A stretch of DNA of 64,000 nucleotides, taken from positions 857,501 through 921,500 of the forward strand of contig NZ_CP047029.1 in the NCBI RefSeq assembly GCF_009796805.1, read 5' to 3'. This document shows positions 370 to 42,310 of this stretch, in pieces. A model generated the notes under the pieces. It did not search any database and was not told the origin of the DNA. It saw only the letters and a list, made by a program, of their open reading frames with translations. The DNA comes from Algibacter sp. L1A34. GTDB taxonomy: Bacteria > Bacteroidota > Bacteroidia > Flavobacteriales > Flavobacteriaceae. Position 1 is the stretch's first letter. Each line of letters starts with the position of its first letter. Position numbers and translations under genes: made by a program.

Positions 370-915
370 TTATTTAGCAATGCCATCTACAATACCATAA
401 GTTACAGATTCTTCTGCACCCATCCAATGATCGCGATTAAAATCTTTCATTACTTTTTCAAAAGTTTGTCCGCAATTATCAGCCAAAATTTTCGCACTTA
501 ATTCTTTAGTAATCACGATTTCTTTAGCAGTAATTTCGATATCACTAGCTTGTCCACGCGCACCGCCGCTTGGTTGATGTATCATAACACGAGCATGAGG
601 TTGGATGAAGCGTTTTCCTTTTTGTCCTGCCGATAAAATTAACGATCCCATAGAAGCTGCAAAACCAGTACAAACTGTAGAAACCTCACTTTTTAAAGCC
701 TTAATACAATCGTAAACAGCAAAACCAGAGGTTACGTAACCACCTGGACTGTTAATATAAAGCGTAATATCTTCAGTACCCAAAGCATCTAAATACATTA
801 ACCTATCTACAACATGCTTTGCAGAATCATCATCAACCTGTCCCCACAAAAACACTTTACGCTGCTCTATAAAATTACTATCTATTGCGTCTTGAATTTT
901 TTTATGTCCACTCAT
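370..915 (-). CDS. clpP: ATP-dependent Clp protease proteolytic subunit (ClpP family)
   Basis: Serine protease that forms the tetradecameric chamber fed by a Clp/Hsp100 unfoldase and degrades tagged cytoplasmic proteins. The 181-residue product has the ClpP triad in normal order: Ser89 in GFAASMGSL, His113 in MIHQPSGG, and Asp158 in the DFNRDHWM segment. The INSPGG oxyanion-loop motif is at about 54-59. Length is slightly below the usual 190-220, with a short N-terminus and no obvious propeptide. No tig or clpX lies beside it, unlike the main clpP operon of many bacteria, so this may be a second ClpP paralogue; flavobacteria often have more than one (family knowledge). Terminator-like hairpins flank it, so it looks monocistronic. 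Confidence 0.93.
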   Translation of the reverse strand: MSGHKKIQDAIDSNFIEQRKVFLWGQVDDDSAKHVVDRLMYLDALGTEDITLYINSPGGYVTSGFAVYDCIKALKSEVSTVCTGFAASMGSLILSAGQKGKRFIQPHARVMIHQPSGGARGQASDIEITAKEIVITKELSAKILADNCGQTFEKVMKDFNRDHWMGAEESVTYGIVDGIAK

Positions 916-1000: not shown

Positions 1001-1318
1001 CTATAATAATGCATCGATCGCTTCTGCGTAAGTTGCTTTAGGTGCTACACCAACTTGACGACCAACAACTTCTCCGTTTTGAAAAACCAAAACTGTAGGA
1101 ATGTTACGCACTCCGTATTTTGCAGCAAACTCCTGATTTGCATCTACATCTACTTTACCAACAACAGCTTTTCCTTCGTACTCGCTGCTAATTTCTTCAA
1201 TAACTGGTCCAACCATTCTACATGGTCCACACCAAGCTGCCCAAAAATCAACTAATACCGGTTTATCACTTTTTAAAACCGTTTCCTCAAACGTTGCATC
1301 CGTAATTTCTAATGCCAT
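1001..1318 (-). CDS. trxA: Thioredoxin
   Basis: Small cytoplasmic dithiol reductase. The 105-residue product is a single complete thioredoxin fold with the canonical active site W29-C30-G31-P32-C33 and the cis-proline in IPT at residue 74. There is no signal peptide or extension, which fits housekeeping thioredoxin 1 rather than an exported TlpA/ResA-type protein. In Bacteroidetes trxA often lies next to a DUF58 gene (here 0.7 kb away, separated by clpP). The region upstream is long and gene-free, so the promoter should be there, but I could not identify a convincing -7 box. Confidence 0.95.
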   Translation of the reverse strand: MALEITDATFEETVLKSDKPVLVDFWAAWCGPCRMVGPVIEEISSEYEGKAVVGKVDVDANQEFAAKYGVRNIPTVLVFQNGEVVGRQVGVAPKATYAEAIDALL

Positions 1319-1867
1319 AATATTTATATTTTTATATGTTCTTAATTCATTTTAATAACACAAATTTAGTCAAAAAATTACCGATTCCTTACAAAGCTAT
1401 CATTTGTTTTACCTATAATGGCATTGAGTACAGTTATTTAATAGTGAATTTAGGCACAACCACAAGGGGACACTGCTTTCACTACTCGTTCGATCCTTTG
1501 CTTAAAAAACTTAAACATACCTTGTCATTCCTAGTGTGAGGCATAATATCTAACCAAGATTATTTATTGAAAATTAAAAAACAACCAAAAAACACAAACT
1601 TCTAACTAATAGTGTTTTATATCAAATTCAACTAACCATATCATAGGCACATAAATACTCTCCTATTTTTATTTCTGAATATAACAAAAAATTAAAGACC
1701 AGTAAAATATGGATTTTAACACAAATTAACACTTGTTAGAAATAGTAAAAACCGATAATAAAAAAAAACAAGGACGTATTGCATAAGACGATAACAAACA
1801 TAAGTTAATATATTTTTTATATATTACAACCGCTATTTACAGCACAAATCTTAAAATAAACCTATTT
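1319..1867. other. 549-bp gene-free stretch with a degraded dispersed repeat
   Basis: Apart from the repeat copy at 1470-1537 this AT-rich stretch shows no convincing coding frame, RNA gene or terminator. It must hold the promoters of trxA (leftward) and of the secreted-protein gene (rightward). A 67-codon frame across the repeat has no family features and I do not call it a gene. Confidence 0.6.
1470..1537 (+). repeat. Dispersed structured repeat, copy 1 (degraded)
   Basis: This shares with copies 2 (3741-3828) and 3 (42164-42310) the left block GCTTTCACTACTCG and, after a variable middle, the block CTTAAACAtaCC followed by a TTC..CTA..G end. Short inverted ends ACACT (1470-1474) and AGTGT (1533-1537) bound it. 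The middle (about 1489-1508) no longer forms the hairpin seen in the other copies, so this copy looks decayed. Confidence 0.7.
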
Positions 1868-3454
1868 ATGTACAAAAAAATCACCCTAGCATTTGCATTG
1901 ATTACTTATGCTTTTTCTTTTTCACAAAATGCCAATTTAGACAGAGAATACTTTGAAGTAGCTTATGTTAAGCTGCCATCTAAACCAATATTAGAAGATA
2001 GTAAACGAACATATGCTTCTAACAAAAGAGCCATTTCCATTTCAGGATTTTCTAGAGTTAAATCTAATGGCACCATAGATGTCAACTATACATTTAACGG
2101 AACTAATATTGGAAATGTAGATATTATAAAAACAAAACACGAAACAAAAGACAAAGATGGTAAAGTAACTTCTACAAGTTATACTTATGCAGCACATAAT
2201 ACTTATTCTTCATCAGGTAGCTTATCAATAAACAATTCTGTGGTTTTAGAAAATAGTTTTGAAAAAACCTATTCAGAAAAAGATGATTACGTAAGTAGCT
2301 CATTCAAATCATACAAACAAGCACAAGACTACTACAACAACAATCGTTATAATATAAAAAAAACACACTCTACCAAACACCAGCAAAATATCCTTTCTTC
2401 AATTAATAGTAGTCTAAATAGCACGTATGGCTATGTGAAATCTAGCACTAGCAATGAGAATTTTTGGATTTTAGGAACTAAAAAACATCCAGAATATCCA
2501 AAACACATGGAAGCCTACGAAACCATGAAAGCTGCTTTTTCAAAAATGAAATACAACGAATCTACAGCTGATTTAAAAGCTGAACTTGAACCAGTAATAG
2601 ATTACTTCAATAGCTTAATACCTGTTTACGAAGGGCCTAAGAAAAAAATGAAGAAAATGAGATATGCTAGTTATTACAATTTAGCTAAAATATACTATTA
2701 CTTAGATATGCCAGAAGAGTCAAAAATATTTGGTCAAAAATTAATTGACAATGACTATGATAAATCAGACGGTAAAAACTTTATAAGAATCTCTGATAAT
2801 CTATTAAGTAAATTTAAAGCAAACGAAACGGATAATAGGCACTTTGAAGTTGTAACTGAAGATCTTACTAATATCGAAGATGAACCAGAAGCTGAAGAAG
2901 AATCAGTTTCAGATAATAAATTAGAATTAGTTAAGGCTTATTTAATATCTAAAGCCGGAGACACCACTTTAGTAGACATGGAAACTAAAGATATTAAACA
3001 AATTGCTTATGAATTAAGAACAGTGCAATATACTACAGACGGTACGCCTATTGGCACAGAAGTTAAAAGTGCTAAAGGTTTTAACGAAGTTCTTTTTGTT
3101 GATGGTACACATTACAAAAATATAGCTTTCAAAGAATCTTCTGTAAAAGGAGATGCAGTAAACGCTGGCCAATTATTACTAGGAGGTTCATCAGAAAAGC
3201 TTTGTAAAATATTATATGAATCAGAAAAATTGAACTTATACCTTTTTAACAATGAAGAAACTGTAATATTTACTCCTGGAAGTAAAAAAGGCAAATCTAC
3301 TTTATCTACAGGTTTTGTATTTGGGTTTAAAAAGAACCTTATTAAACTTGCGGAAGGATGTGCTTCTTTAATTGAAAAAGCAGAAAACAAAGAATTCAAA
3401 AATACTCCAGAAGATTTAATCAAATTCGCTAAAGAACTTGCTTCTTGTGAATAG
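1868..3454 (+). CDS. Secreted protein of unknown function (528 aa)
   Basis: I do not recognise a family. Visible features: an N-terminal signal peptide (MYKKITLAFALITYAFSFSQ, cleavage probably after residue 19-20); a Ser/Thr/Asn/Tyr-rich first half (to about residue 200) with many polar repeats; a helical, TPR-like stretch at about 205-320 (YYNLAKIYYYLDMPEESKIF); an acidic linker at about 335-350 (EDEPEAEEESV); and a C-terminal globular domain that may read as a small beta structure. No Por sorting domain or lipobox is seen. It is transcribed alone and ends 11 bp before a very strong palindromic terminator. Likely periplasmic or surface-exposed; function unknown. Confidence 0.8.
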   Translation: MYKKITLAFALITYAFSFSQNANLDREYFEVAYVKLPSKPILEDSKRTYASNKRAISISGFSRVKSNGTIDVNYTFNGTNIGNVDIIKTKHETKDKDGKVTSTSYTYAAHNTYSSSGSLSINNSVVLENSFEKTYSEKDDYVSSSFKSYKQAQDYYNNNRYNIKKTHSTKHQQNILSSINSSLNSTYGYVKSSTSNENFWILGTKKHPEYPKHMEAYETMKAAFSKMKYNESTADLKAELEPVIDYFNSLIPVYEGPKKKMKKMRYASYYNLAKIYYYLDMPEESKIFGQKLIDNDYDKSDGKNFIRISDNLLSKFKANETDNRHFEVVTEDLTNIEDEPEAEEESVSDNKLELVKAYLISKAGDTTLVDMETKDIKQIAYELRTVQYTTDGTPIGTEVKSAKGFNEVLFVDGTHYKNIAFKESSVKGDAVNAGQLLLGGSSEKLCKILYESEKLNLYLFNNEETVIFTPGSKKGKSTLSTGFVFGFKKNLIKLAEGCASLIEKAENKEFKNTPEDLIKFAKELASCE

Positions 3455-3465
3455 CTAGGTATAGT

Positions 3466-3527
3466 TTTTTGTAAAATTAAAAAGGTGTTACTAAATATTT
3501 AGTAACACCTTTTTAATTTTACAAAAA
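3466..3527. terminator. 62-bp perfect palindrome, bidirectional terminator
   Basis: The 30-nt arm at 3466-3495 is an exact reverse complement of 3498-3527, centred on TA. The GC-containing core is AAAAAGGTGTTACTAAA on the left, and the outer part is A/T-rich, so T-runs follow the core stem in both directions. It serves the rightward secreted-protein gene. In the reverse direction it would also have served a dnaE ending at 3571, which is where the orphan dnaE tail now lies. Confidence 0.9.
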
Positions 3528-3570: not shown

Positions 3571-3735
3571 AACTAATTCAACTTATACTTAACATCTTGC
3601 GCTTCTAATTCAGTTATAAGCTCCTGAGAAACTTTAACCTTTTGCTTTCTACTAATCATGGGCAATTTAATTTTCTCTTTCATATCATAAACTAAAAAAT
3701 TAAGCGCCTGACTTCCTGGGTGCTAATTTAATAAA
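3571..3735 (-). pseudogene. Orphan copy of the dnaE 3' end
   Basis: Bases 3571-3733 match 10487-10649 (the end of dnaE) with three differences that I can count by eye, at 3612, 3675 and 3725, and identity is lost by 3735. Read on the minus strand it encodes the last ~50 residues of DnaE (from HPGSQALNFLVYDMKEK to KYKLN and the stop). The differences at 3612 and 3675 are synonymous (Thr ACC/ACT and Glu GAA/GAG). The third, at the boundary, turns the Glu codon before HPGSQ into TAG. There is no start codon or upstream frame, so it cannot be a gene. The silent nature of the internal changes suggests it was recently part of a functional dnaE. Confidence 0.95.
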
Positions 3736-3740
3736 TAATT

Positions 3741-3828
3741 ATAGTGCTACTAAATGAGTCGGGCTTTCACTACTCACTCCCTTCTACCGTATAGAAGCTT
3801 AAACATGCCGTTCAACCCCTAGCGCTAT
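3741..3828 (+). repeat. Dispersed structured repeat, copy 2
   Basis: GGGCTTTCACTACTCACTCC is followed by a hairpin (CTTCTA with TAGAAG), then GCTTAAACATGCCGTTCAA and CCCCTAGCGC. Outer inverted ends ATAGTGCTA (3741-3749) and TAGCGCTAT (3820-3828) match at 8 of 9 positions. It lies 6 bp from the end of the orphan dnaE tail, on the island side. Confidence 0.8.
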
Positions 3829-3855
3829 TTAGAATAGGTTATAAATTTTGTGCTT

Positions 3856-5610
3856 TTAATTGCCAACCTTAAAAACACGCTTAGATTTAATGTAATCACC
3901 ATTTACAGAATACCCTTCTAAAACTATTTCAAAATCTCCAATAACATCCGATGTGTAAAATTCTATTGTATTATTTTCTTTTTTCAACTCTAAATTTGGA
4001 ACCCACAATAATTGCGCTCTGTAATCGGGAATTCTTTTTAAACTTTCGTTTTCAGCGCTATAATAAGGGTGATAATATAATTTTGACACTTGCGGAGCTT
4101 GAAGATTAAATTTGACCGCGCCTTCATTAATATTTAAAGGCTTAAAGTCGCCATTTTTTGTTTTAAAATCTATAATCCCTTTATAAATTACAGGTCCAGA
4201 AAAATAAATATCACGAACCAAACTTACAGATTCTATTTTATCACAATCAAAATCTACTATATCAGCATTATTCTGAATTAAATATCCATCTACTAAAACT
4301 AATGGGTCATAATCTTTAAAAGTACTATTTTTAAATTCCACAAAGGTATTAACACTAAATCTATAACCTCCCTTAGCCCCTCTAATTGCCGCGTTTTGAA
4401 TGACCTCAACGAATGTCTCTCGAACTGTTGAAAACCTTTTATAATCATCTAAAACATAAGTTAGTGATGGCTTATCATAAAAAACTTCTTCAGGCAACCT
4501 ATACACAATGCTGTCCTTTTTAGAGTCAGCATAAGCATTCTCTATTTGCCTATAAATACTTTGTTTTAACAACCACGACTTTATACTAGCATCTAACTTA
4601 ACCTCATTAAACTTTAAACCCTTAGAATATAAAAATAATTTTGAATCTAAAACAACATCATATTGATCTCTATCAACATCTTGCACCTGAATTAAAGCTT
4701 CCGCATCTTTATAGTTTTCATATAGATTGAAGTAAAAGGCTCCAATATCGTTTGTTTTAACATTCTTAAAAATATAATCTTTTCCGGGTAATACTAATGT
4801 TACAATTTTACCTGCAGCAGACGTTCCATCTTTTTTATTTAACACTTTACCAGAAATAATTTCACTCCTAATTTCAGGCAGATAAAAACCATTAATTTCT
4901 TTTACGCTTTCATTAACTTGTTCATCCTGATTAAGTTTTAAAGAATTAATTTTTTTAATAGAAAGGGAATAATTCCCCTTATAGACATTTGCCAAATTAC
5001 TTTTCAAATTAACCACAACCTTACTTCGTGTTGCGTAAGATTGCTTTTCTATATCAAGACTTATTTTATCAGCTTGATTATCGAGATTATTTGTTACATT
5101 TTCATTTCTTATTATATGTACCGTGTTTTTAGTATTATTTTGATTTTCTTGAAACAACATACCATTTACAGTAAACGGATTTATTACATAAATATCCTTT
5201 ACGAAAAATGGTGAGGAGACATTATTCTCCATCCATTTAGTATAACCTAATAATTTATAGTGTCCCGTATTAATACTAGATGGCATAAAAAAATCACTAC
5301 TTGCTAATCCTTTTTCTAAATTTAATTTATGTTCAAATAGCAAATAATTATTTGCGCCAATTAACTGTACATACCCAACATTACTAACATCACTTGGTTT
5401 ATTGTTTGTTGTTAAACTATAAAATTTATAATACAGAGTTTCGCCTGCCAAATAAACACTTTTATTAGTATGAACAACAACTTTTTCAGTTGGTATTACT
5501 TTTCTAACCTTGCTTAGCTGTTCTTTACTTATTTGTCCCGAAGCCTGAATAAAAAACAGGCACACCACGATACCTATAAAAACCTGTATTTGTTTAATTA
5601 ATCTTCCCAA
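3856..5610 (-). CDS. Exported MG2-like / barrel-less TonB-plug-like protein
   Basis: 584 residues. The signal peptide ends near residue 26 (FIQASGQ). Residues ~40-140 look like an alpha-2-macroglobulin MG2-type domain ('kVVVHTNKSVYLAGETLYY', then a 'GHYKLLGYTKWMEN' segment). A carboxypeptidase-regulatory-like insert lies around 250-320. Residues ~395-510 resemble a TonB-receptor plug (PLVLVDGYLIQN, then DKIESVSLVRD and GIIDFKTKNG) but no beta-barrel follows. The C-terminal segment IPDYRAQLLWVPN...IGDFEIVLEGYS is shared in pattern with the larger protein at 51081-53969. It overlaps the upstream DUF4249 gene by 13 bp, so they are co-transcribed. Probably a periplasmic or surface partner of the receptor; the substrate is unknown. 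Confidence 0.75.
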   Translation of the reverse strand: MGRLIKQIQVFIGIVVCLFFIQASGQISKEQLSKVRKVIPTEKVVVHTNKSVYLAGETLYYKFYSLTTNNKPSDVSNVGYVQLIGANNYLLFEHKLNLEKGLASSDFFMPSSINTGHYKLLGYTKWMENNVSSPFFVKDIYVINPFTVNGMLFQENQNNTKNTVHIIRNENVTNNLDNQADKISLDIEKQSYATRSKVVVNLKSNLANVYKGNYSLSIKKINSLKLNQDEQVNESVKEINGFYLPEIRSEIISGKVLNKKDGTSAAGKIVTLVLPGKDYIFKNVKTNDIGAFYFNLYENYKDAEALIQVQDVDRDQYDVVLDSKLFLYSKGLKFNEVKLDASIKSWLLKQSIYRQIENAYADSKKDSIVYRLPEEVFYDKPSLTYVLDDYKRFSTVRETFVEVIQNAAIRGAKGGYRFSVNTFVEFKNSTFKDYDPLVLVDGYLIQNNADIVDFDCDKIESVSLVRDIYFSGPVIYKGIIDFKTKNGDFKPLNINEGAVKFNLQAPQVSKLYYHPYYSAENESLKRIPDYRAQLLWVPNLELKKENNTIEFYTSDVIGDFEIVLEGYSVNGDYIKSKRVFKVGN

Positions 5611-6815
5611 AATTCTGGTTTTATGTTAGATGCAAAAGTTGAACAATCTCCACATTCAGGATCAACAATCTCATAAAGAGTACCAAAACCTGAAATATAT
5701 TTAAACGGAGGATTATCTGTTAATAACGTTAATAAAATTGACCTTTCATCAAGCTGATATGGATCCAAACTACCTACTTTATCATAATCAAGTAATCTTA
5801 CCTCACAATCAAAATAATACGGCGGTAAAACAAAATTAAAATCGGCATAATTAAAATAAATTCTTTTTGAAGTAACCGTAGATACGTCGAAAAAACCAAT
5901 AACTTTTTCTTCTAAACTTTCTTCCGAAAAAATATTTCCTTGAACAAAACCAGGTTGACTAGTTACAAATACACTTTCGCTATCTCCTCCTAATTCTTTC
6001 AAAATTTTATAAAAGTTATTAGCATCGGCCGATTGCACATACTGCTTAACCAAAATACTATATCGATCTCTCAAAAAAGGGCTGTTCTCCGAAATGAACT
6101 TAATTGGAAATCTCGAAACTCTGTTTTCACTTAAACTACTTACACTCATGAGAAGAATTTCGGTAGAAGTATTTGTGCTGTAGCAATTTTCTTGATCTGC
6201 GGGCCTTTCAATAATATCAATATCATAAGCACGCTCATTATCTATACCTTGTATATTAGAAATAGAAATATCTTGAAATCTAAAATATGGGGTTACAATT
6301 TTATAAGTCTCTTCATATTCATATCTAAAAAATGCAGCTCCATCTAAATCATTATTACTATCGACTAAAACCTGAACTCCACGTACCTCATCCGAACTCC
6401 CCAATTCTGCATACAAATTTTCCAGCTCTGCTTTAGGAGCCAACACTTCAGAATTAGAATAGTACTTTTTACCATCGGAAGTTGTAATTAATAATTTATA
6501 GCTTTCATCTTTAATAGCTTGAAATTGTTCATCTGAATAAAAAACTCCCTCACCAACATGATGGAAATTATAAGTTTTACCACTAGTTGCAATCTGTACA
6601 CTGGCACCAGCATCAAAAACCGGTGTATCACTTTCTAAAAGAAAAGTACGTGTAACTTTTACTTCTTGAATTTTAAATTCATCTGTTATTGTAGCTTCAA
6701 CCACCAAAACATTTTTAAAATTTTCGGTTGATAAAGGAATTTCTTCTGTACAACTAAAAAGAACATAAAAGCCAAACAACAAAAAAACATGAGTATATAA
6801 TTTATTTAATTTCAT
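5598..6815 (-). CDS. DUF4249 family lipoprotein
   Basis: 405-residue predicted lipoprotein with lipobox FSC at residue 22 (VLFSCTEEIPL). The body matches the DUF4249 pattern: an early 'LVVEATITDE' strand followed by 'VKVTRTF', a Cys near residue 210 (ENCYSTNTS) and a C-terminal Cys pair (PECGDCSTF). DUF4249 genes are regularly coupled to TonB-dependent receptors in Bacteroidetes; the protein is presumed to sit at the outer membrane and assist the receptor in an analogous, not demonstrated, SusD-like role. The start is 2 bp after the receptor stop and the end overlaps the next gene, confirming an operon. Confidence 0.85.
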   Translation of the reverse strand: MKLNKLYTHVFLLFGFYVLFSCTEEIPLSTENFKNVLVVEATITDEFKIQEVKVTRTFLLESDTPVFDAGASVQIATSGKTYNFHHVGEGVFYSDEQFQAIKDESYKLLITTSDGKKYYSNSEVLAPKAELENLYAELGSSDEVRGVQVLVDSNNDLDGAAFFRYEYEETYKIVTPYFRFQDISISNIQGIDNERAYDIDIIERPADQENCYSTNTSTEILLMSVSSLSENRVSRFPIKFISENSPFLRDRYSILVKQYVQSADANNFYKILKELGGDSESVFVTSQPGFVQGNIFSEESLEEKVIGFFDVSTVTSKRIYFNYADFNFVLPPYYFDCEVRLLDYDKVGSLDPYQLDERSILLTLLTDNPPFKYISGFGTLYEIVDPECGDCSTFASNIKPEFWED

Positions 6816-6817
6816 TT

Positions 6818-9580
6818 TTAAAATTTAAAATTATAAGTTACTGTAGGAACAGGAATAGAAAATATGGATGATTTGTAAGCCTTAATTTCTCCTGAATTAT
6901 TTACAAAAAACACAGAGTACGGATTATTTCTACCTAACACATTATAAACTGAAATATTCCAAAAACTATGAGCCAATTTTACGTTTTTATGGTTCCCTTC
7001 AATATTTACTCCTAAATCCAAACGATAATAATCAGGGATTCTATGTTCATTTCTATCACTATACAAAACATGCTCACTATTGTTGTAATTATATTTCCCT
7101 ATTGGGTATGTAATTGGCCTTCCCGTTTGATAGTTAAAATTTAAGGAAAAACTATAACGTTTGGTAAGTCTGTAATTTGAAATTATACTAAGGTCGTGCG
7201 GTCGGTCTTGGTTTGCAGAAAAATACTCACCATTGTTTACTTGATTACTTAAAATATCACTATCGAGTTTAACAAAAGATCGAGAATATGAATATCCTAT
7301 CCATCCATTAAATTTACCCTTTTCTTTTTTTAATAGCACTTCTGCTCCGTATGCCTTGCCTTTACCTTGAAGCAATTCTGTTTCTATATCTTCATTTAAA
7401 AACACCTGAGCTCCAGTTTTAAAATCTAATAAATTATTCATTTTCTTATAATACCCTTCAAGACTTAACTCATACAAACCGTCTTCAAAGTTTTTAAATA
7501 CTCCAAAAGAATACTGCTCGGCACGCTGAGGCTCTATATTCAAATCTGACAACTTCCATGAATCTACAGGCGAAGCTGTTGAATTTGTAGACAGTAGATG
7601 TGAGTACTGAATGGTTTTATTATAACCAGCTTTTATCGATAAATCTGGCTTCAATTCATATCGAGCAGAGATTCTGTATTCGGGACCTCCATAAGTTTTA
7701 ATTACCTCGTTTTTGCTATATGTTTTAGCTTCAATAATAGACTCTTCGCTTTTAGGTTGCGATACATCATAAATATTTTGAGTACTTGCTCCTAAAGCGG
7801 CGTATATAGAGTACCTAAACCCGACATCTAATAATAATTTCTTATTCACTTCAATTAAATCTGAAATAAAAACAGCAGATTCTAAACCTTTTTCTTGATC
7901 AATACTTTGCCTTTCAATTACAGACTCGTCTCCTAAAGCCTCAATACTACCTGGTTTTACAGAGTAAAACTTACTACTAAAACCATATCCGAATTTATGT
8001 TTTTTATTGTGTAAATATTTTGCATTTAGTTTCAATTCTGTCTCATTAATACTGTAACCATAATCAAAATTTCGATTAAAATCACCATCGTAAACGATAT
8101 TAAACTTATACTCACTTGTTGCCAATTGCAATGTTGCTCTATTTTTTTTATCAAATTCATGACTCCATTTTAATGAAGCGAGCTTATTACTGTATTCATA
8201 AATAGAATCTGAAGTAATACTAAACTGGTCGTTACTAAAATAACCTGTTCCCTGTATATCGTTTTTATCATTAATTTTATGATTATATTTTAAAATAGCA
8301 TCATAAAAATTAGCTTTACTATTTTTAATAGACTCCTCGGAAACAGCTTTAAGAACCCAATCTGAATACGTTGCTCTAACCCCTGCCAAAACCGAAGCCT
8401 TACCTTCAACAACTGGTATTTCTAACATTAAATTCCCCGTTATAGGACCAATATTACCTTCACCAGAAAATTTTTTATTATTAGCTTCCTTAGTTGAAAT
8501 ATCTATTACTGATGAAAGTCGACCACCATACTCGGCAGGTATACTCCCTTTATAAATATTTACACTTCCTGTAGCAAAAGGATTAATAGCAGAAAACACA
8601 CCAAAAAAGTGAGAAGGATTATACATGGTAGCACCATCAAAAAGTATTAAATTCTGATCAACTTTACCTCCTCTAACATTATAACCTAATGCGCCTTCGC
8701 CAGCCGTTTTTATACCCGGCATTGTTGTAGCCACCTTAAGCACATCGCGCTCACCCAATACTAACGGAATGTTTTTTATGCCTTCCACTTCTATTCTGGT
8801 AACACCAACTTCGGCTTTTCTAATATTATCATCCCTACCAGATTCTATAACGACCTCATCAAGATATTCTGCAGATTCTGACAGTATAAAATCTAAGATT
8901 CCTTCTCCATAAACCAAAAGTGTTCTGCTTGTTTTACCGTAAGAAAGCGAAGAAGTTTCTAATATATTTTCTCCTAAAGGAAGCTCCAAAGTATAAAACC
9001 CAGATGCATTTGTAGTTGTGTTGATGTTTTTATCTTTCACATACAAAACCAAGTTATCTATACCCTTAAAGGTATTAGCATCTCTAATATACCCCGAAAT
9101 AGAAACCTTATCTATATTACGATTTTTAGCCTCTTTACCGATAGGTATAATTTTATTACTATTAAATGAACTAGGTTTATATTGTTTTTGAAAAACAGGT
9201 GTTTTATTAATACTAGCCACGACAGGACTAGATTCATCTGTTTTAACAATCCCGTTTAAACCAGGAGGTAAATGATCTATAATAGCATTATTTTTAGTTA
9301 AAATAACTTTCCCTTCAAATAATAGAAAATTAATAGGTGTCTCTTCTAATAGTTCGGTTAAAACATAATCTAAGGTTGTATTTGTAAATGATTTTGTAAC
9401 GGTAGAATCATCAAACCAACCTGCTTCAAAATAAAACTTATAATCAACTTTTTTCTCAAGATCTTTAAGCGCTTCTAACCTATTAACATTAATAAACTCT
9501 ATTGTTATCTCTTTATTTGTTTGACAGATGATAGTTTGTGCCACCAAAACCAATAACCAAGTAAATACTGTTCTAATCAT
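6818..9580 (-). CDS. TonB-dependent receptor with STN and carboxypeptidase-like domains
   Basis: 920-residue outer-membrane receptor. Order: signal peptide (to ~19); STN domain, about 24-97 (ITIEFINVNRLEALKDLEKK), the short secretin/TonB N-terminal domain used in transmembrane signalling; CarboxypepD_reg-like domain, about 157-240 (VSISGYIRDANTFKGI); plug, about 250-365 (LGYNVRGGKVDQNLILFDGA, then AEYGGRLSSVIDIS); and beta-barrel to the terminal aromatic residue (TYNFKF). An STN domain normally implies a FecR-type anti-sigma partner, but no sigma/anti-sigma pair is in the island. It is the second gene of a four-gene minus-strand operon and is paired with a DUF4249 lipoprotein. The ligand cannot be read from the sequence. 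Confidence 0.92.
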   Translation of the reverse strand: MIRTVFTWLLVLVAQTIICQTNKEITIEFINVNRLEALKDLEKKVDYKFYFEAGWFDDSTVTKSFTNTTLDYVLTELLEETPINFLLFEGKVILTKNNAIIDHLPPGLNGIVKTDESSPVVASINKTPVFQKQYKPSSFNSNKIIPIGKEAKNRNIDKVSISGYIRDANTFKGIDNLVLYVKDKNINTTTNASGFYTLELPLGENILETSSLSYGKTSRTLLVYGEGILDFILSESAEYLDEVVIESGRDDNIRKAEVGVTRIEVEGIKNIPLVLGERDVLKVATTMPGIKTAGEGALGYNVRGGKVDQNLILFDGATMYNPSHFFGVFSAINPFATGSVNIYKGSIPAEYGGRLSSVIDISTKEANNKKFSGEGNIGPITGNLMLEIPVVEGKASVLAGVRATYSDWVLKAVSEESIKNSKANFYDAILKYNHKINDKNDIQGTGYFSNDQFSITSDSIYEYSNKLASLKWSHEFDKKNRATLQLATSEYKFNIVYDGDFNRNFDYGYSINETELKLNAKYLHNKKHKFGYGFSSKFYSVKPGSIEALGDESVIERQSIDQEKGLESAVFISDLIEVNKKLLLDVGFRYSIYAALGASTQNIYDVSQPKSEESIIEAKTYSKNEVIKTYGGPEYRISARYELKPDLSIKAGYNKTIQYSHLLSTNSTASPVDSWKLSDLNIEPQRAEQYSFGVFKNFEDGLYELSLEGYYKKMNNLLDFKTGAQVFLNEDIETELLQGKGKAYGAEVLLKKEKGKFNGWIGYSYSRSFVKLDSDILSNQVNNGEYFSANQDRPHDLSIISNYRLTKRYSFSLNFNYQTGRPITYPIGKYNYNNSEHVLYSDRNEHRIPDYYRLDLGVNIEGNHKNVKLAHSFWNISVYNVLGRNNPYSVFFVNNSGEIKAYKSSIFSIPVPTVTYNFKF

Positions 9581-9589
9581 ATTACAATT

Positions 9590-10321
9590 TTACTTTTCTA
9601 AATTATTTAATTGATTAAAAAGCTTTTCGTAGAACAACTCTTTATCTGTTTTATAGAGTCGATTATTTTTATTGTAAAATGTCTGAATTTCTTTTTTTCT
9701 TATGGGTATTGCCTTTACTAAATCTTTTTTAGAATTGATTTTAAAAAATTGATCCTCAAAACACAAAACATAAGTTGCTTTCTCACTAAACTTATAATAA
9801 AGTTTATTGTCTTTAATTATTTTATGTTTCTCTTTTTTTAATTTAACATACAACTTGTATTTACTGGTAGCATTGTGAATTTCTTTAAAAAACCCATTAC
9901 CATAAAAAGAGGATAAACCTTCATTTATTGTTAATCGAACAAATTTAGAATCACCTAAAAAAAACGATTCAACCATACTAGAGTTTAATTGTAAATAATT
10001 AACCTTTTTATTTACAAACTCTAAAATTATTAAATCGTCTAAGAGATTATACTTCAATTTTAAATTAAAATATGGCTCACCAGCATAAACGACGGTACCA
10101 TTAAAAAAATTATAACTTTGATAAAACTTATTATTATCTGTATCCCAACATCTATAGATATCAAAATATTCTAACCCGTTATAAATACTTCTATTCTCTT
10201 CTTTAGAGAAAGAATCTAAAACACTATAATAATCCGGGTTTTTATCAATAGAATTAGGTTGCGAAACCAGCAAATTAGAAGAAAACAAGCAAACTAAATA
10301 CAGTAAGAGCAATGGCCTCAT
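9590..10321 (-). CDS. Exported protein of unknown function, first gene of the receptor operon
   Basis: 243 residues with a signal peptide (MRPLLLLYLVCLFSSNLLVS, cleavage near 20). The mature part has alternating strands (GTVVYAGEPYFNLKLKYNLL, then DDLIILEF) and a Lys-rich C-terminal helix (KKEIQTFYNKNNRLYKTDKE). I know of similar short exported proteins placed in front of receptor/DUF4249 operons in flavobacteria but cannot name a family. It lies 9 bp before the receptor start codon and leads the operon; its promoter should be in 10322-10358, just beyond the dnaE terminator. Confidence 0.75.
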   Translation of the reverse strand: MRPLLLLYLVCLFSSNLLVSQPNSIDKNPDYYSVLDSFSKEENRSIYNGLEYFDIYRCWDTDNNKFYQSYNFFNGTVVYAGEPYFNLKLKYNLLDDLIILEFVNKKVNYLQLNSSMVESFFLGDSKFVRLTINEGLSSFYGNGFFKEIHNATSKYKLYVKLKKEKHKIIKDNKLYYKFSEKATYVLCFEDQFFKINSKKDLVKAIPIRKKEIQTFYNKNNRLYKTDKELFYEKLFNQLNNLEK

Positions 10322-10358
10322 AAAACTTTCTATTATAACATATACTTAAACAAAATAA

Positions 10359-10385
10359 AAAACAGCCATTTTAATGACTGTTTAA
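10359..10385 (-). terminator. Terminator downstream of dnaE
   Basis: On the minus strand AAACAGtCATT pairs with AATGgCTGTTT (one mismatch) and is followed by a T-rich run. It separates dnaE from the receptor operon and would be the present-day dnaE terminator. Confidence 0.6.
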
Positions 10386-10486
10386 AAAGATATTAGCTAG
10401 TGAGCTAAACTATGCACATATTTCAACAAAAACAAGAAAACAGTAAGAATTATTAACCAAAAAGTTGAATTCACTGAAAAAAATCA

Positions 10487-10651
10487 AACTAATTCAACTT
10501 ATACTTAACATCTTGCGCTTCTAATTCGGTTATAAGCTCCTGAGAAACTTTAACCTTTTGCTTTCTACTAATCATGGGCAATTTAATTTTTTCTTTCATA
10601 TCATAAACTAAAAAATTAAGCGCCTGACTTCCTGGGTGCTCATTTAATAAT
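10487..10651 (-). repeat. dnaE-proximal copy of the island-flanking direct repeat
   Basis: Same orientation and ~98% identity to 3571-3735, 6916 bp apart. It covers the dnaE stop codon and the last ~50 codons, and the match ends 2 bp past the stop codon. Recombination between the copies would remove the ~6.9-kb island and leave one intact dnaE. Confidence 0.95.
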
Positions 10652-13600
10652 TCTTTTAACGCCATGATTTTTTGCTCCGTTAAATCTTTTATATTTATTT
10701 GAATAGATAATTTTTTAGCGTAATTCTCCATTACATCATGCAATAGTTGAAAACTATTAAACTGCAATCGTGGATCACTTTTCTTACCTGTATCCTTATT
10801 AGTCCAACCTTCTCGAACAAAGGTTTTCACAAACACAAAACTATTAATCATAAAAAAGTGTCGAAACTTTAAATACTCTTCACCAAAAACTCGGAATTCA
10901 AAACTATCAGTATAATCTTCAATAGTAAATAACGCCCAGCCTTTACCTTGCTTACTTACACGGTGTTGCACATCTGTAACTACGCCTCCAAAAACAATTT
11001 CACGGTTTACGTAAAGATTTAAATCATTAAACATCCCAATAGTACCGTTACAAAAAGTTTTCATTTCTGTTTTAAAGTCGTCGAGCGGATGTCCAGAAAT
11101 ATAAACTCCAACAACTTCACGCTCTTTGCTTAGTTTTTCCATAGTTCCCCACTCTTCACAAGGCGGAACTTCGGGTTCAGGTATTTGCACATCACTAGCT
11201 TCTCCAAACAAACTTACTTGCGCAGAGTTCTCATTTTCTTTATGCTTGTGCGCGTATTTTATTGCTTTTTCTAAAAAGGTAATACCATCTCCATCATCAT
11301 GAAAATACTGTGCACGATGCGTATCAGATAATCCATCAAAACCACCAGCTAAAGCTAAATTTTCAAAAGCTCTTTTATTAGCTGCACGTAAATCAATACG
11401 TTTAGCAAAATCGAAAATAGATTTATATGGGCCATCTTTTTCTCTATGTTCCACAATCGTCATAACAGCTCCATGCCCTACTCCTTTAATAGCACCCATT
11501 CCAAAACGAACCGCATAATCTTTATTTACAGAAAATTTATAAAACGACTCATTTATATCTGGACCAAGAACGGCTAACTTCATACGTTTACATTCCTCCA
11601 TAAAAAATGTAACCTGCTTAATATCGTTCATATTATTCGACAAAACAGCTGCCATATATTCCGCAGGATAATGTGCTTTTAAATAAGCCGTTTGGTAAGC
11701 AATCCAAGCATAACATGTGGAGTGCGACTTATTAAATGCATAACTCGCAAAGGCTTCCCAATCCTTCCAAACTTTCTCTAAAACTATAGCATCATGTCCA
11801 TTAGCACTAGCCTGCTCAATAAACTTAGGTTTCATTTTATCAAGTACGGCAATTTGCTTTTTACCCATCGCCTTACGTAAAACATCGGCTTCACCTTTAG
11901 TAAAACCCGCAAGACTTTGAGACAGTAACATTACTTGCTCTTGGTAAACTGTAATACCATAAGTTTCCTTTAGGTACTCTTCCATCGCTGGTAAATCGTA
12001 CTCAATATCCTCGTCACCATGTTTTCTACGAACGAAACTTGGAATATATTCCATTGGTCCTGGACGATACAAGGCATTCATGGCTATTAAATCTTCAAAA
12101 ACTGTTGGCTTTAAATCTTTAAGGTGTTTTTGCATCCCTGGAGATTCATACTGGAACACACCAACTGTTTCTCCACGTTGGAATAAAGCATATGTTTCTT
12201 CATCATCTAAAGGAAAAGTATCTGGATCAAGCAAAATATCATGCTTGGCTTTTACAATTTTAACGGTATCTTTAATTAGGGTTAATGTTTTTAACCCCAA
12301 GAAATCCATTTTTAGTAATCCGGCATCTTCCACCACCGAGTTATCAAACTGGGTGACATATAAATCGGAATCTTTTGCCAACGAAACCGGTACGAATTTG
12401 GTAATATCATCGGGTGTAATAATAACACCACAGGCATGAATACCTGTATTTCTTACCGAACCTTCCAGTGTTCGAGCTAGATTTAAAGTTTCGGCTTGTA
12501 AATCACTACCATCGGCAATATTGAGAAGTTCATTGACTTTTTCTAAATCCTCAGCTCTAAATTTTTTCCCTAATTCCTTTTCAGAAAGACCAAAAATCTT
12601 TCCAAGTTTAGACATATTCGGAATTAATTTTGCAATTCTATCGGCATCAAACAACGGTAAATCTAGTACACGTGCGGTATCACGAATAGACGACTTTGCT
12701 GCCATCGTACCGTAGGTAATAATTTGTGCTACTTGGTTAGATCCATATTTTTCGATTACGTAATCCATAACGCGACTTCGACCTTCATCATCAAAATCGA
12801 TATCGATATCGGGCATACTTACACGATCGGGATTTAAGAAACGCTCAAAAAGCAAATCGTATTTAAGCGGGTCAATATTTGTAATCCAAAGGCAATATGC
12901 AGCCACAGAACCTGCCGCAGAACCACGACCAGGCCCAACGGAAACATCCATTTTTCTGGCTTCACGAATAAAATCTTCAACAATAAGAAAATATCCTGGA
13001 TATCCTGTTTTTTCAATTACGCCTAACTCAAAATCGAGACGCTCAACAACTTCTTCCGATAGTTCTTCGCCATAACGTTTTTTAGCACCTTCATACACTA
13101 AATGATTTAAAAAGGCATTCTCACCTCGTTTTCCACCATCGGCTAAATCTTCAATGTGTTTAAATTTTTCTGGAATATCAAAGGCTGGTAATAATACATC
13201 ACGCGCCAATTGATAAGCTTCCACTTTATCGACAACTTCTTGCACATTAGAAATAGCTTCAGGAACATCCTTAAAGATCTGCTTCATTTCATCGGGAGAC
13301 TTAAAATAATACTCCTGATTTGGCATACCATAGCGATAACCACGTCCGCGACCAATTGGTGTTGCTTGTTTTTCACCATCTTTTACACACAATAAAATAT
13401 CGTGAGCGTTAGAATCGCCTTTCTTTCTATAATAGGTATTATTTGTGGCTATTAATTTAACCTCATGCTTTTTTGCTAACGAAATTAACGTTGGGTTTAC
13501 ACGATCTTCATCTTCTTGATTGTGGCGCATTAACTCCACATACAAATCGTCGCCAAATTGTTCTTTCCACCAAATTAAGGCTTCTTCGGCTTGATTCTCA

Positions 13601-14877
13601 CCAACGTTAAGAATTTTACTTGGTACTTCACCATATAAATTCCCTGTTAAAACAATTAAATCTTCTTTATATTCTTCAATTAACTTCTTATCAATCCTTG
13701 GCAAATAATAAAACCCATTTACAAAGGCATGAGATGATAGTTTAGCTAGATTATGATAGCCATTTTTATTTTTTGCGATTATCACAATTTGATAACCGTT
13801 ATCCTTTCGCGACTTATCTAAATGGTTCTCACACACAAAAAATTCGCAACCAATAATAGGTTTCATTTCTTTTGCAGTAACCGTCGCTCCAGTAATTTCT
13901 GCTTCTTTTCTTTTATTTTTTACACTCCCATTATGTTTGTTTACCGCATTCACGAAATGAAATGCTCCCATCATGTTTGCATGATCGGTAAGCGCAACAG
14001 CTTCCATATTATATTCCGCTGCAGCGGAAACAATATCCGCAACACCCATTGTAGATTGTAATACCGAAAACTGCGAGTGATTATGTAAATGCACAAAATC
14101 GACATCGGCTAAAGCAGATACGTTTTGCTTAATATCTTCGGAAGACAAACCGCTGCTTTCGCTTTTCTTTATGCGCTCTAGTATTTTAGAACTTTCGCGC
14201 TTTAAGTTTATGTGCTTTAAACCAATAAGATCAATGGTAGCCGGGTTTTTTTCATTAAAATCCTGAAAATACTCAGGCTCAACATCTAATTGCTCTTTGG
14301 TATATTCACCCAAACGTAACAACTCGAAAAAGCAACGCGTGGTTGCTTCCACATCGGCAGTAGCATTATGCGCTTCAGAAAAACCAACACCAAATAAATG
14401 TTCGTGTAATTCTGATAACGTTGGCAATTTAAACTTACCATAACGTCCACCAGGAATCTGGCATAAATTAGCTGTATGTTCCGTACAAGTATCTAAAACT
14501 GGCAGTTCTTGCAATGGGTTTTCTACATTGCCCCTCACAAACTCGGCACCCATAATATTTAAATCGAACTTTACGTTTTGGCCAACCACAAATTTAGTTT
14601 TCCCTAAAGCTTCATTAAATTTCTCTAAAACTTCAGCTAACGGAATACCTTGTTCTTGAGCTAAATCGGTAGAAATACCATGAATTTTCTCAGCATCATA
14701 AGGAATATTAAACCCTTCAGGTTTTACTAAATAATCTTCATGTTCAACACAATTCCCCATCTCGTCATGCAACTGCCATGCAATCTGAATACACCTTGGC
14801 CAGTTGTCGCTATCGGTTATGGGCGCATCCCAACGCTTTGGTAATCCTGTGGTTTCTGTATCGAAAATTAAGTACAT
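10489..14877 (-). CDS. dnaE: DNA polymerase III alpha subunit with N-terminal 3'-5' exonuclease
   Basis: Replicative polymerase, 1462 residues. Residues 1-~200 form a DnaQ-like (DEDDh) exonuclease: DTETTG at 6-11, a VVGQNVKFD motif near 95 and EAHNATADVEAT near 168. A PHP domain starts at ~258 (FVHLHNHSQFSVLQS). The polymerase core carries the catalytic carboxylates in PDIDIDF at about 688-694, after the GPGRGSAAGS motif. Helix-hairpin-helix, OB-fold and C-terminal regions complete it. Ordinary DnaE is ~1160 residues, so the extra length is the fused proofreading domain, a known flavobacterial arrangement. It is transcribed alone. The 3' end is duplicated at 3571-3735, so this tail may have come with the island. 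Confidence 0.97.
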   Translation of the reverse strand: MYLIFDTETTGLPKRWDAPITDSDNWPRCIQIAWQLHDEMGNCVEHEDYLVKPEGFNIPYDAEKIHGISTDLAQEQGIPLAEVLEKFNEALGKTKFVVGQNVKFDLNIMGAEFVRGNVENPLQELPVLDTCTEHTANLCQIPGGRYGKFKLPTLSELHEHLFGVGFSEAHNATADVEATTRCFFELLRLGEYTKEQLDVEPEYFQDFNEKNPATIDLIGLKHINLKRESSKILERIKKSESSGLSSEDIKQNVSALADVDFVHLHNHSQFSVLQSTMGVADIVSAAAEYNMEAVALTDHANMMGAFHFVNAVNKHNGSVKNKRKEAEITGATVTAKEMKPIIGCEFFVCENHLDKSRKDNGYQIVIIAKNKNGYHNLAKLSSHAFVNGFYYLPRIDKKLIEEYKEDLIVLTGNLYGEVPSKILNVGENQAEEALIWWKEQFGDDLYVELMRHNQEDEDRVNPTLISLAKKHEVKLIATNNTYYRKKGDSNAHDILLCVKDGEKQATPIGRGRGYRYGMPNQEYYFKSPDEMKQIFKDVPEAISNVQEVVDKVEAYQLARDVLLPAFDIPEKFKHIEDLADGGKRGENAFLNHLVYEGAKKRYGEELSEEVVERLDFELGVIEKTGYPGYFLIVEDFIREARKMDVSVGPGRGSAAGSVAAYCLWITNIDPLKYDLLFERFLNPDRVSMPDIDIDFDDEGRSRVMDYVIEKYGSNQVAQIITYGTMAAKSSIRDTARVLDLPLFDADRIAKLIPNMSKLGKIFGLSEKELGKKFRAEDLEKVNELLNIADGSDLQAETLNLARTLEGSVRNTGIHACGVIITPDDITKFVPVSLAKDSDLYVTQFDNSVVEDAGLLKMDFLGLKTLTLIKDTVKIVKAKHDILLDPDTFPLDDEETYALFQRGETVGVFQYESPGMQKHLKDLKPTVFEDLIAMNALYRPGPMEYIPSFVRRKHGDEDIEYDLPAMEEYLKETYGITVYQEQVMLLSQSLAGFTKGEADVLRKAMGKKQIAVLDKMKPKFIEQASANGHDAIVLEKVWKDWEAFASYAFNKSHSTCYAWIAYQTAYLKAHYPAEYMAAVLSNNMNDIKQVTFFMEECKRMKLAVLGPDINESFYKFSVNKDYAVRFGMGAIKGVGHGAVMTIVEHREKDGPYKSIFDFAKRIDLRAANKRAFENLALAGGFDGLSDTHRAQYFHDDGDGITFLEKAIKYAHKHKENENSAQVSLFGEASDVQIPEPEVPPCEEWGTMEKLSKEREVVGVYISGHPLDDFKTEMKTFCNGTIGMFNDLNLYVNREIVFGGVVTDVQHRVSKQGKGWALFTIEDYTDSFEFRVFGEEYLKFRHFFMINSFVFVKTFVREGWTNKDTGKKSDPRLQFNSFQLLHDVMENYAKKLSIQINIKDLTEQKIMALKELLNEHPGSQALNFLVYDMKEKIKLPMISRKQKVKVSQELITELEAQDVKYKLN

Positions 14878-42163: not shown

Positions 42164-42310
42164 GACGTTACCTACTTTTTTAAGTAACATTTTAGCTAAA
42201 CATGCTACATATAGCTGGAAAAAGTAGGTCGCGCTTTCACTACTCGCTCCCTCCCGAAAAGGTCGGGGAGCTTAAACAGACCGTTCAATCGCTAACGCAA
42301 GAGTAACGTC
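42164..42310 (+). repeat. Dispersed structured repeat, copy 3 (best preserved)
   Basis: The core (42227-42298) has GCTTTCACTACTCGCTCC, a hairpin (CTCCCGA with TCGGGGAG), CTTAAACAGACCGTTCAATC and GCTAACGC. It is enclosed by an 8-bp perfect inverted repeat GACGTTAC (42164-42171) / GTAACGTC (42303-42310). The right end abuts the ATG of the EI24 gene at 42311. Copies 1 and 2 are at 1470-1537 and 3741-3828. Confidence 0.85.

Follow-up and report, generated by a model that had tools for sequence, protein, structure and literature searches.

Homology-facilitated illegitimate recombination (HFIR) has been cited for Acinetobacter, Streptococcus and Pseudomonas (PMC5361080; reference list of PMC2884548) and has been described in Escherichia coli conjugation (PMC3240628). 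The interval between dnaE and trxA in the flavobacterium Algibacter sp. L1A34 resembles such cases, in that one end would have been joined by homology and the other by illegitimate joining, with DNA gained without a recombinase. Unlike the HFIR studies, the present case is inferred from a scar alone. The locus lies in a stretch of 64,000 nucleotides (assembly GCF_009796805.1, contig NZ_CP047029.1, positions 857,501 to 921,500 of the forward strand). This whole stretch is referred to below as the window, and all coordinates are given within it.

Effector-immunity arrays of the type VI secretion system in Vibrio cholerae are reported to arise by sequential displacement, for which an HFIR-like process was suggested by the authors and noted as rare (PMC5361080). 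As that report describes them, and as proposed for the window, a new module is set behind a conserved anchor, so that the resident cargo comes to lie further downstream and a resident gene leaves its 3' end as a remnant. In V. cholerae this remnant comes from an effector and there is a build-up of immunity genes, whereas here the anchor is the housekeeping gene dnaE and the cargo consists of a receptor operon and a gene for a 528-residue protein (orf528). In Streptococcus pneumoniae, unequal exchange by transformation has been shown to produce merodiploids (PMC3784515). There too, incoming DNA promotes an unequal exchange that doubles an interval bounded by repeats. The pneumococcal duplications described in that source span about 100-900 kb, use pre-existing repeats, and the one that was followed was unstable; the present interval is about 7 kb with an 8-bp seam. 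Natural transformation has been reported in Riemerella anatipestifer (PMC8459023).

The doubled dnaE end

In the window, the 3' end of dnaE occurs twice, as does a structured element of the trxA-upstream region. The two halves carry different cargo, and the seam between them falls within an 8-bp identity. The window probably represents two close haplotypes, A and B, joined in tandem by recombination that relied on homology at one end and on microhomology at the other. The half next to dnaE is termed module A and the half next to trxA module B. The landmarks are:

10489-14877, minus strand: dnaE, DNA polymerase III alpha, 1462 aa, intact
10487-10650, minus strand: native copy of the 164-bp repeat, comprising the dnaE 3' end and 2 bp past the stop
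3739-3830, minus strand: orphan element copy at the end of module A, of a kind normally about 130 bp upstream of trxA in A. lectus and others
3726-3733, minus strand: seam TATTAAAT, 8 bp, present in the trxA-upstream spacer (congener G001 and the window's second copy) and in the window's dnaE end (10642-10649)
3571-3734, minus strand: dnaE 3' end, second copy, with which module B begins; in-frame stop just past the seam
1449-1542, minus strand: trxA-upstream element in its regular position (130 bp ahead of trxA), degenerate
1001-1318, minus strand: trxA (thioredoxin, by Pfam), conserved right border of the slot

Read in the direction of dnaE, the window continues past the receptor operon with a spacer holding the element (3830-3739), the seam, the tail copy (3734-3571), a palindrome (3527-3466), the convergent orf528, the second element (1542-1449) and trxA.

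A repeat search of the window returned a single direct repeat of 164 nt (3571-3734 and 10487-10650, 98% identical, spacing 6916). The first-pass annotation, made from the sequence without database searches, had placed it at 3571-3735 and 10487-10651; the repeat, its orientation and its three differences are real, and its end was set one base too far, since bases 3735 and 10651 are already mismatched. The match starts 2 bp beyond the dnaE stop, as had been noted, which the coordinates of dnaE confirm. The three differences lie at positions 3725, 3675 and 3612. The first changes GAG to TAG, creating an in-frame stop with the base directly after the seam, and the other two are silent changes at third codon positions (GAA/GAG and ACC/ACT), in agreement with the earlier description of two synonymous differences and a stop at the edge. 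In the complete single-contig genome of 4,638,103 bp, exactly two copies were detected (E values of 1.5e-81 and 4.9e-77), with no third at E of 0.001 or below. A chimeric assembly of two strains, one carrying A and one carrying B, is extremely improbable: the genome is a single contig with an estimated completeness of 100% and contamination of 0.49%, and the repeat is a short one whose copies are not identical.

Four congeneric genomes were compared (G001 to G004, the last being A. lectus). Between the tail copy and the native tail, 3 of 164 positions differ; the corresponding sequence of G001 and G004 is 11-14% divergent from either. A close relationship of donor and recipient is probable, with the two tails 98% identical to each other and 80-89% identical to those of the four congeners. 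The join would also be much younger than the species split, provided that the copy evolves freely and was never converted.

The seam and the doubled element

On its element side, the sequence can be aligned with the trxA-upstream spacers of G001 and of the window itself as far as TATTAAAT. The second dnaE tail opens with these eight bases, and the window's dnaE contains them once. As in an illegitimate joint at shared bases, TATTAAAT is therefore found in both parent-like sequences. The dnaE genes of G001 and G004 lack TATTAAAT at the corresponding place, and the spacer of G004 reads CATTAAAT. Shared runs of at least 8 bp make up 0.02-0.05% of all junction positions between these sequences, with the real seam counted in.

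The element, about 92 nt long, was modelled as sequence and structure after its dispersed copies had been aligned. Its orphan copy scores 88 bits and its trxA-proximal copy 41 bits. Loci of dnaE from named organisms were also collected (80 kept of 114 found, each read up to 10 kb downstream of dnaE, three of them for less than 2 kb). The element was found in 13 of the 57 named loci searched for it, 51 of which have trxA in view; it lies 125-132 bp before trxA in 10 of the 13, Aquaticitalea included, and elsewhere in the other three. Because the element is dispersed, the identity of the orphan copy rests on its match of 87-88% to the trxA-upstream spacer of G001, the best outside the window genome. 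With both the dnaE end and the trxA-upstream element present twice, the latter a doubling that the first-pass annotation had not reported, the interval from the dnaE end to trxA is doubled, with different cargo in each half. This is predicted by a tandem join of two alternative spacers and not by insertion at an attachment site.

The same seam and the same doubled element would result if haplotype A had tandemly duplicated its segment of dnaE tail, island and element by slippage at TATTAAAT, with orf528 replacing the second island later. That course is unlikely, as two events would be required and the second cargo would have to be exchanged, and the trxA-proximal element is degenerate whereas the orphan is not, which argues that the second half is no recent copy of the first. 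Template switching, in which about 164 bp of dnaE would have been copied locally into a chromosome already holding both the island and orf528, agrees with the microhomology at one edge. It leaves unexplained the doubled trxA-upstream element, and also the other edge, which lies 2 bp past the dnaE stop beside a gene that stands behind dnaE in other genomes too; this explanation is very improbable indeed.

The dnaE-trxA interval in related genomes

When 299 genomes of the family were searched with the last 49 residues of dnaE, its end was matched in 274, and two matches were found only in the window genome and in genome G139. The latter was rejected as a second tail duplication: its hits share 991 bp at 97% identity and lie on two contigs, both at contig edges, in a genome that is 64% complete. 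The window genome is thus the only one of the 274 with a convincing second tail. In the 80 named loci, comparison of each locus's own last 300 bp of dnaE with the DNA downstream gave short matches in 13 (the longest 55 bp at 73%) and no dnaE tail, with the limit that decayed tails escape both searches. Successive scars of the kind expected from displacement arrays were not seen, with one scar in the window and none in the 80 named loci.

The spacer between dnaE and trxA in these Flavobacteriaceae is a variable slot. Among the 72 named loci with trxA in view, it measures up to 600 bp in 35 and 674-9548 bp in 37, and it holds many unrelated cargo genes (loci L034 to L113). The two largest clusters of open reading frames in the slot have 16 members each and correspond in L061 to an ArsR-type regulator and an AHSA1-domain protein. 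A literature search on dnaE insertion hotspots in flavobacteria found nothing. The cargo and outer flank in the window are:

9590-10321, minus strand: 243-aa protein, module A cargo, no Pfam or NCBIfam match; 90.5% amino acid identity in G001 at the same place
6818-9580, minus strand: TonB-dependent receptor, module A cargo (Plug PF07715, CarbopepD_reg_2)
5598-6815, minus strand: DUF4249 protein, module A cargo
3856-5610, minus strand: 584-aa protein, module A cargo, sub-threshold MG2 match
3466-3527, no strand: 62-bp perfect palindrome, read as bidirectional terminator of orf528
1868-3454, plus strand: orf528, 528 aa, module B cargo, convergent to dnaE, no Pfam or NCBIfam match
370-915, minus strand: clpP-like protease gene (by Pfam), conserved flank

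Arrangements resembling each half are found in relatives. Behind its dnaE, G001 has the same four genes in unchanged order (amino acid identities of 90.5, 94.0, 67.6 and 72.6%), then a spacer, trxA, clpP and a DUF58 gene, and there is a single dnaE tail. Both island junctions of G001 are homologous to those of the window (82% in the leader from dnaE to the first gene, 88% in the spacer after the island). A. lectus represents the empty site, with dnaE directly followed by the spacer and trxA. Around the slot, these two congeners share 95.3% identity over a stretch of 13.9 kb and 95.5% over one of 11.9 kb; the dnaE of the window genome matches theirs at 88.6-88.7%. The remaining congeners, G002 and G003, have one dnaE tail each and show no trxA in the stretches read behind dnaE. 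As for module B, homologues of orf528 (52-71% amino acid identity) are found between dnaE and trxA, convergent to dnaE, in three of the 80 named loci (L058, L061 and L077). Taken together, the second tail, the palindrome, orf528 and trxA resemble a downstream region that belongs to another dnaE haplotype, and not the end of an island.

These comparisons bear on the initial proposal of the first-pass annotation, namely site-specific insertion of the island by an integrating element that carried a dnaE 3' end, with displacement of the original tail. A direct repeat of a gene 3' end, a gene regenerated intact and silent differences are all features that such an element would leave. G001, however, has the same island and junctions without a second tail, an arrangement which the annotation itself had named as refuting its proposal and which largely does so. 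With the empty site of A. lectus, it also means that the 164-bp repeat is not the attachment mark of the island. Moreover, the repeat has at its outer edge the 8 bp shared with the trxA-upstream spacer, it stands between two modules that are each closed by a trxA-upstream element, and within the family two tails were matched only in the window genome and in the contig-edge near-duplicate of G139. No integrase, transposase or recombinase family was matched by the four island proteins or by orf528 (Pfam and NCBIfam; recombinases elsewhere in the genome were not searched for), consistent with the earlier remark that no integrase is visible. Site-specific integration is accordingly very unlikely. 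The idea of a displaced tail survives in part: the second tail does look like a dnaE end displaced from a chromosome with the palindrome and orf528, given the relatives in which dnaE is followed by convergent orf528, while the repeat is no signature of island integration. An empty site had likewise been expected to show dnaE followed by the palindrome; in A. lectus dnaE is instead followed directly by the spacer and trxA, and an order of dnaE and then convergent orf528 is seen in L058, L061 and L077.

Proposed route of the tandem join

In the favoured tandem join, haplotype A would have carried dnaE, the four-gene receptor operon, the element and trxA, as in G001, and haplotype B dnaE, a terminator, convergent orf528 and trxA. 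A cell of one haplotype would have received linear DNA of the other, through transformation, conjugation or transduction, and this DNA would have paired homologously at one end, in dnaE if A was incoming or in trxA and clpP if B was. The other end would have been joined through TATTAAAT, either by HFIR or by an unequal exchange with the same product. Recombination with a related donor, which the first-pass annotation had mentioned as an alternative, thus becomes the likely route, between close relatives. The anchors for extended homology exist on both sides (dnaE and trxA-clpP), and a near-identical donor leaves no crossover point visible. dnaE would have been left intact because the break fell in a redundant copy of its end. 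A match to a ComEC-type gene is present in the window genome.

The direction of transfer is indicated both ways. The absence of orf528 from all four congeners, with the operon common to G001, points to B as the arrival, whereas the receptor gene, closer to G001 than the core genes are, points to A. Divergence gives no donor direction, as the two silent differences favour neither copy clearly, and trxA is too short and too conserved.

Several points weigh against this reconstruction. The event would be exceptional, since none of the other filled slots examined showed a scar, and HFIR is reportedly orders of magnitude rarer than homologous recombination (PMC5361080). TATTAAAT is AT-rich, the spacer of A. 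lectus shares 7 of its 8 bases only, and the 8-bp identity is deduced from G001 and from the window's second spacer, in place of an unbroken module A spacer of this species. One genome per species was compared, and the A-alone and B-alone arrangements are known from other species only. An identity of 98% between the tails is no proof of a conspecific donor, because gene conversion could keep them alike. Genes for ComEC are widespread (10 of 14 control genomes) and are no proof of competence.

The scar is of an ordinary kind in an unusual place. It offers a readable record of a bacterial chromosome gaining cargo without the enzymes of a mobile element: both parent-like arrangements are still present in relatives, the seam is readable to within a few bases, and the bordering essential gene has survived. 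As the first-pass annotation had predicted, the receptor operon could possibly still be lost by RecA-dependent recombination of one 164-bp repeat with the other, leaving haplotype B with dnaE intact. A wider reading, possible but doubtful, is that the slot serves as an integrase-free stacking site, with the dnaE end and the trxA-upstream element as reusable anchors; surface cargoes would be swapped or stacked between strains, and the repeat would permit loss and regain of the operon by recombination at the level of the population. If true, this would amount to phase-like variation of a surface receptor, for example under phage pressure.

The receptor operon

The four-gene TonB island of the first-pass annotation was confirmed by a Pfam search of its proteins. 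PF07715 and PF14054 are above cut-off, suggesting a receptor with a Plug domain beside a putative partner lipoprotein. For the five slot proteins, NCBIfam yielded no usable name; the names trxA, clpP and DUF58 are from Pfam matches. Since G001 has the operon with one tail and shares both junctions, and A. lectus is empty, the island is not tied to the tail duplication, and its arrival in the slot was most likely the earlier event. In A. mikhailovii (L053) this slot holds a divergent form of the operon (30-55% amino acid identity), as it does in an uncultured flavobacterium (L067), there with two DUF4249 genes; genome G272 has the gene order of A. mikhailovii.

At third codon positions, the receptor genes of the window and G001 are 84% identical, as against 72% for dnaE. 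The DUF4249 and 584-aa genes are far apart from those of G001 (75 and 79% nucleotide identity; 70-82% per 300-bp block). The middle of the receptor gene (7378-8577) is about 95-98% identical to G001 per 300-bp block, with a maximum of 98% at 7978-8277. This mosaic suggests a recent exchange inside the operon; parts of it may have moved recently, as the receptor gene is closer to G001 than the core is. In Flavivirga amylovorans (L057), relatives of the 243-aa protein (45%) and of the receptor (69%) lie about 6.4-7.2 kb past the dnaE stop. They stand beyond trxA, clpP and DUF58, near the slot and outside it, and this receptor is closer than that of A. mikhailovii.

The dispersed element

The element also occurs in the window at 42209-42303 on the minus strand. 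It is intergenic and has an outer stem of 6 bp; compensatory changes at 3 of these pairs give a weak signal of structure. It may be an RNA or a DNA hairpin like the repetitive extragenic palindromic sequences. Four copies searched against Rfam gave no match at the gathering threshold, and a literature search on dispersed repeats of Algibacter found nothing. The model (R1) has 80, 70, 74, 43 and 69 matches in G000 to G004, respectively. Of 40 genomes searched, 23 have the element; these comprise the window genome and also 4 of the 15 genomes from other families of the order, with 1-3 matches each in those four.

orf528 and the palindrome

Matches to orf528, some of them weak, were found in 16 of the 299 family genomes, including that of the window, and none in the four congeners. 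In L061, 482 bp precede the homologue and four more genes lie between it and trxA, and in L077 the homologue is longer (708 aa). Seven of the nine other genomes with both positions listed carry orf528 on a contig other than that of dnaE or more than 100 kb away (G104, G312, G296, G190, G244, G123 and G282), so that the slot is not its sole home, which speaks against an exclusive link; the remaining two are G239, whose slot is that of L077, and G063. In G063, the genome of L052, orf528 is probably also located between dnaE and trxA, to judge from its contig ends: the dnaE contig stops 167 bp past the matched dnaE end, and the other contig starts 177 bp before the end of orf528 and continues to trxA. 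The two contig ends (L171 and L170) show short inverted matches (ACCCGTTGGGTGTAATTA and its complement) and a possible reading-frame start at the break, which suggest an insertion sequence between dnaE and orf528.

The palindrome is perfect and loopless, and stands 11 bp behind the stop of orf528. It is present at one place in the genome (two matches being the same place on both strands), by which a dispersed repeat was ruled out. An Rfam RNA was likewise rejected, the matches being far below gathering scores and mostly to miRNA models that fit a hairpin. Hairpins with arms of at least 10 within 35 bp of the stop were found in 12 of 17 distinct relatives of orf528, on or off the slot (compared without a shuffled control), and only weaker or more distant ones in L061, L126, L128, L130 and L133. 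The palindrome had been proposed as the original terminator of dnaE. Its position behind orf528 and the hairpins of the relatives make it better read as the terminator of orf528, possibly shared with dnaE. The hairpin of G063 (AAAGGTG-nn-ACTA ... TAGT-nn-CACCTTT) is similar to it, and the palindrome of the window is longer than the hairpins behind the other orf528 relatives examined.

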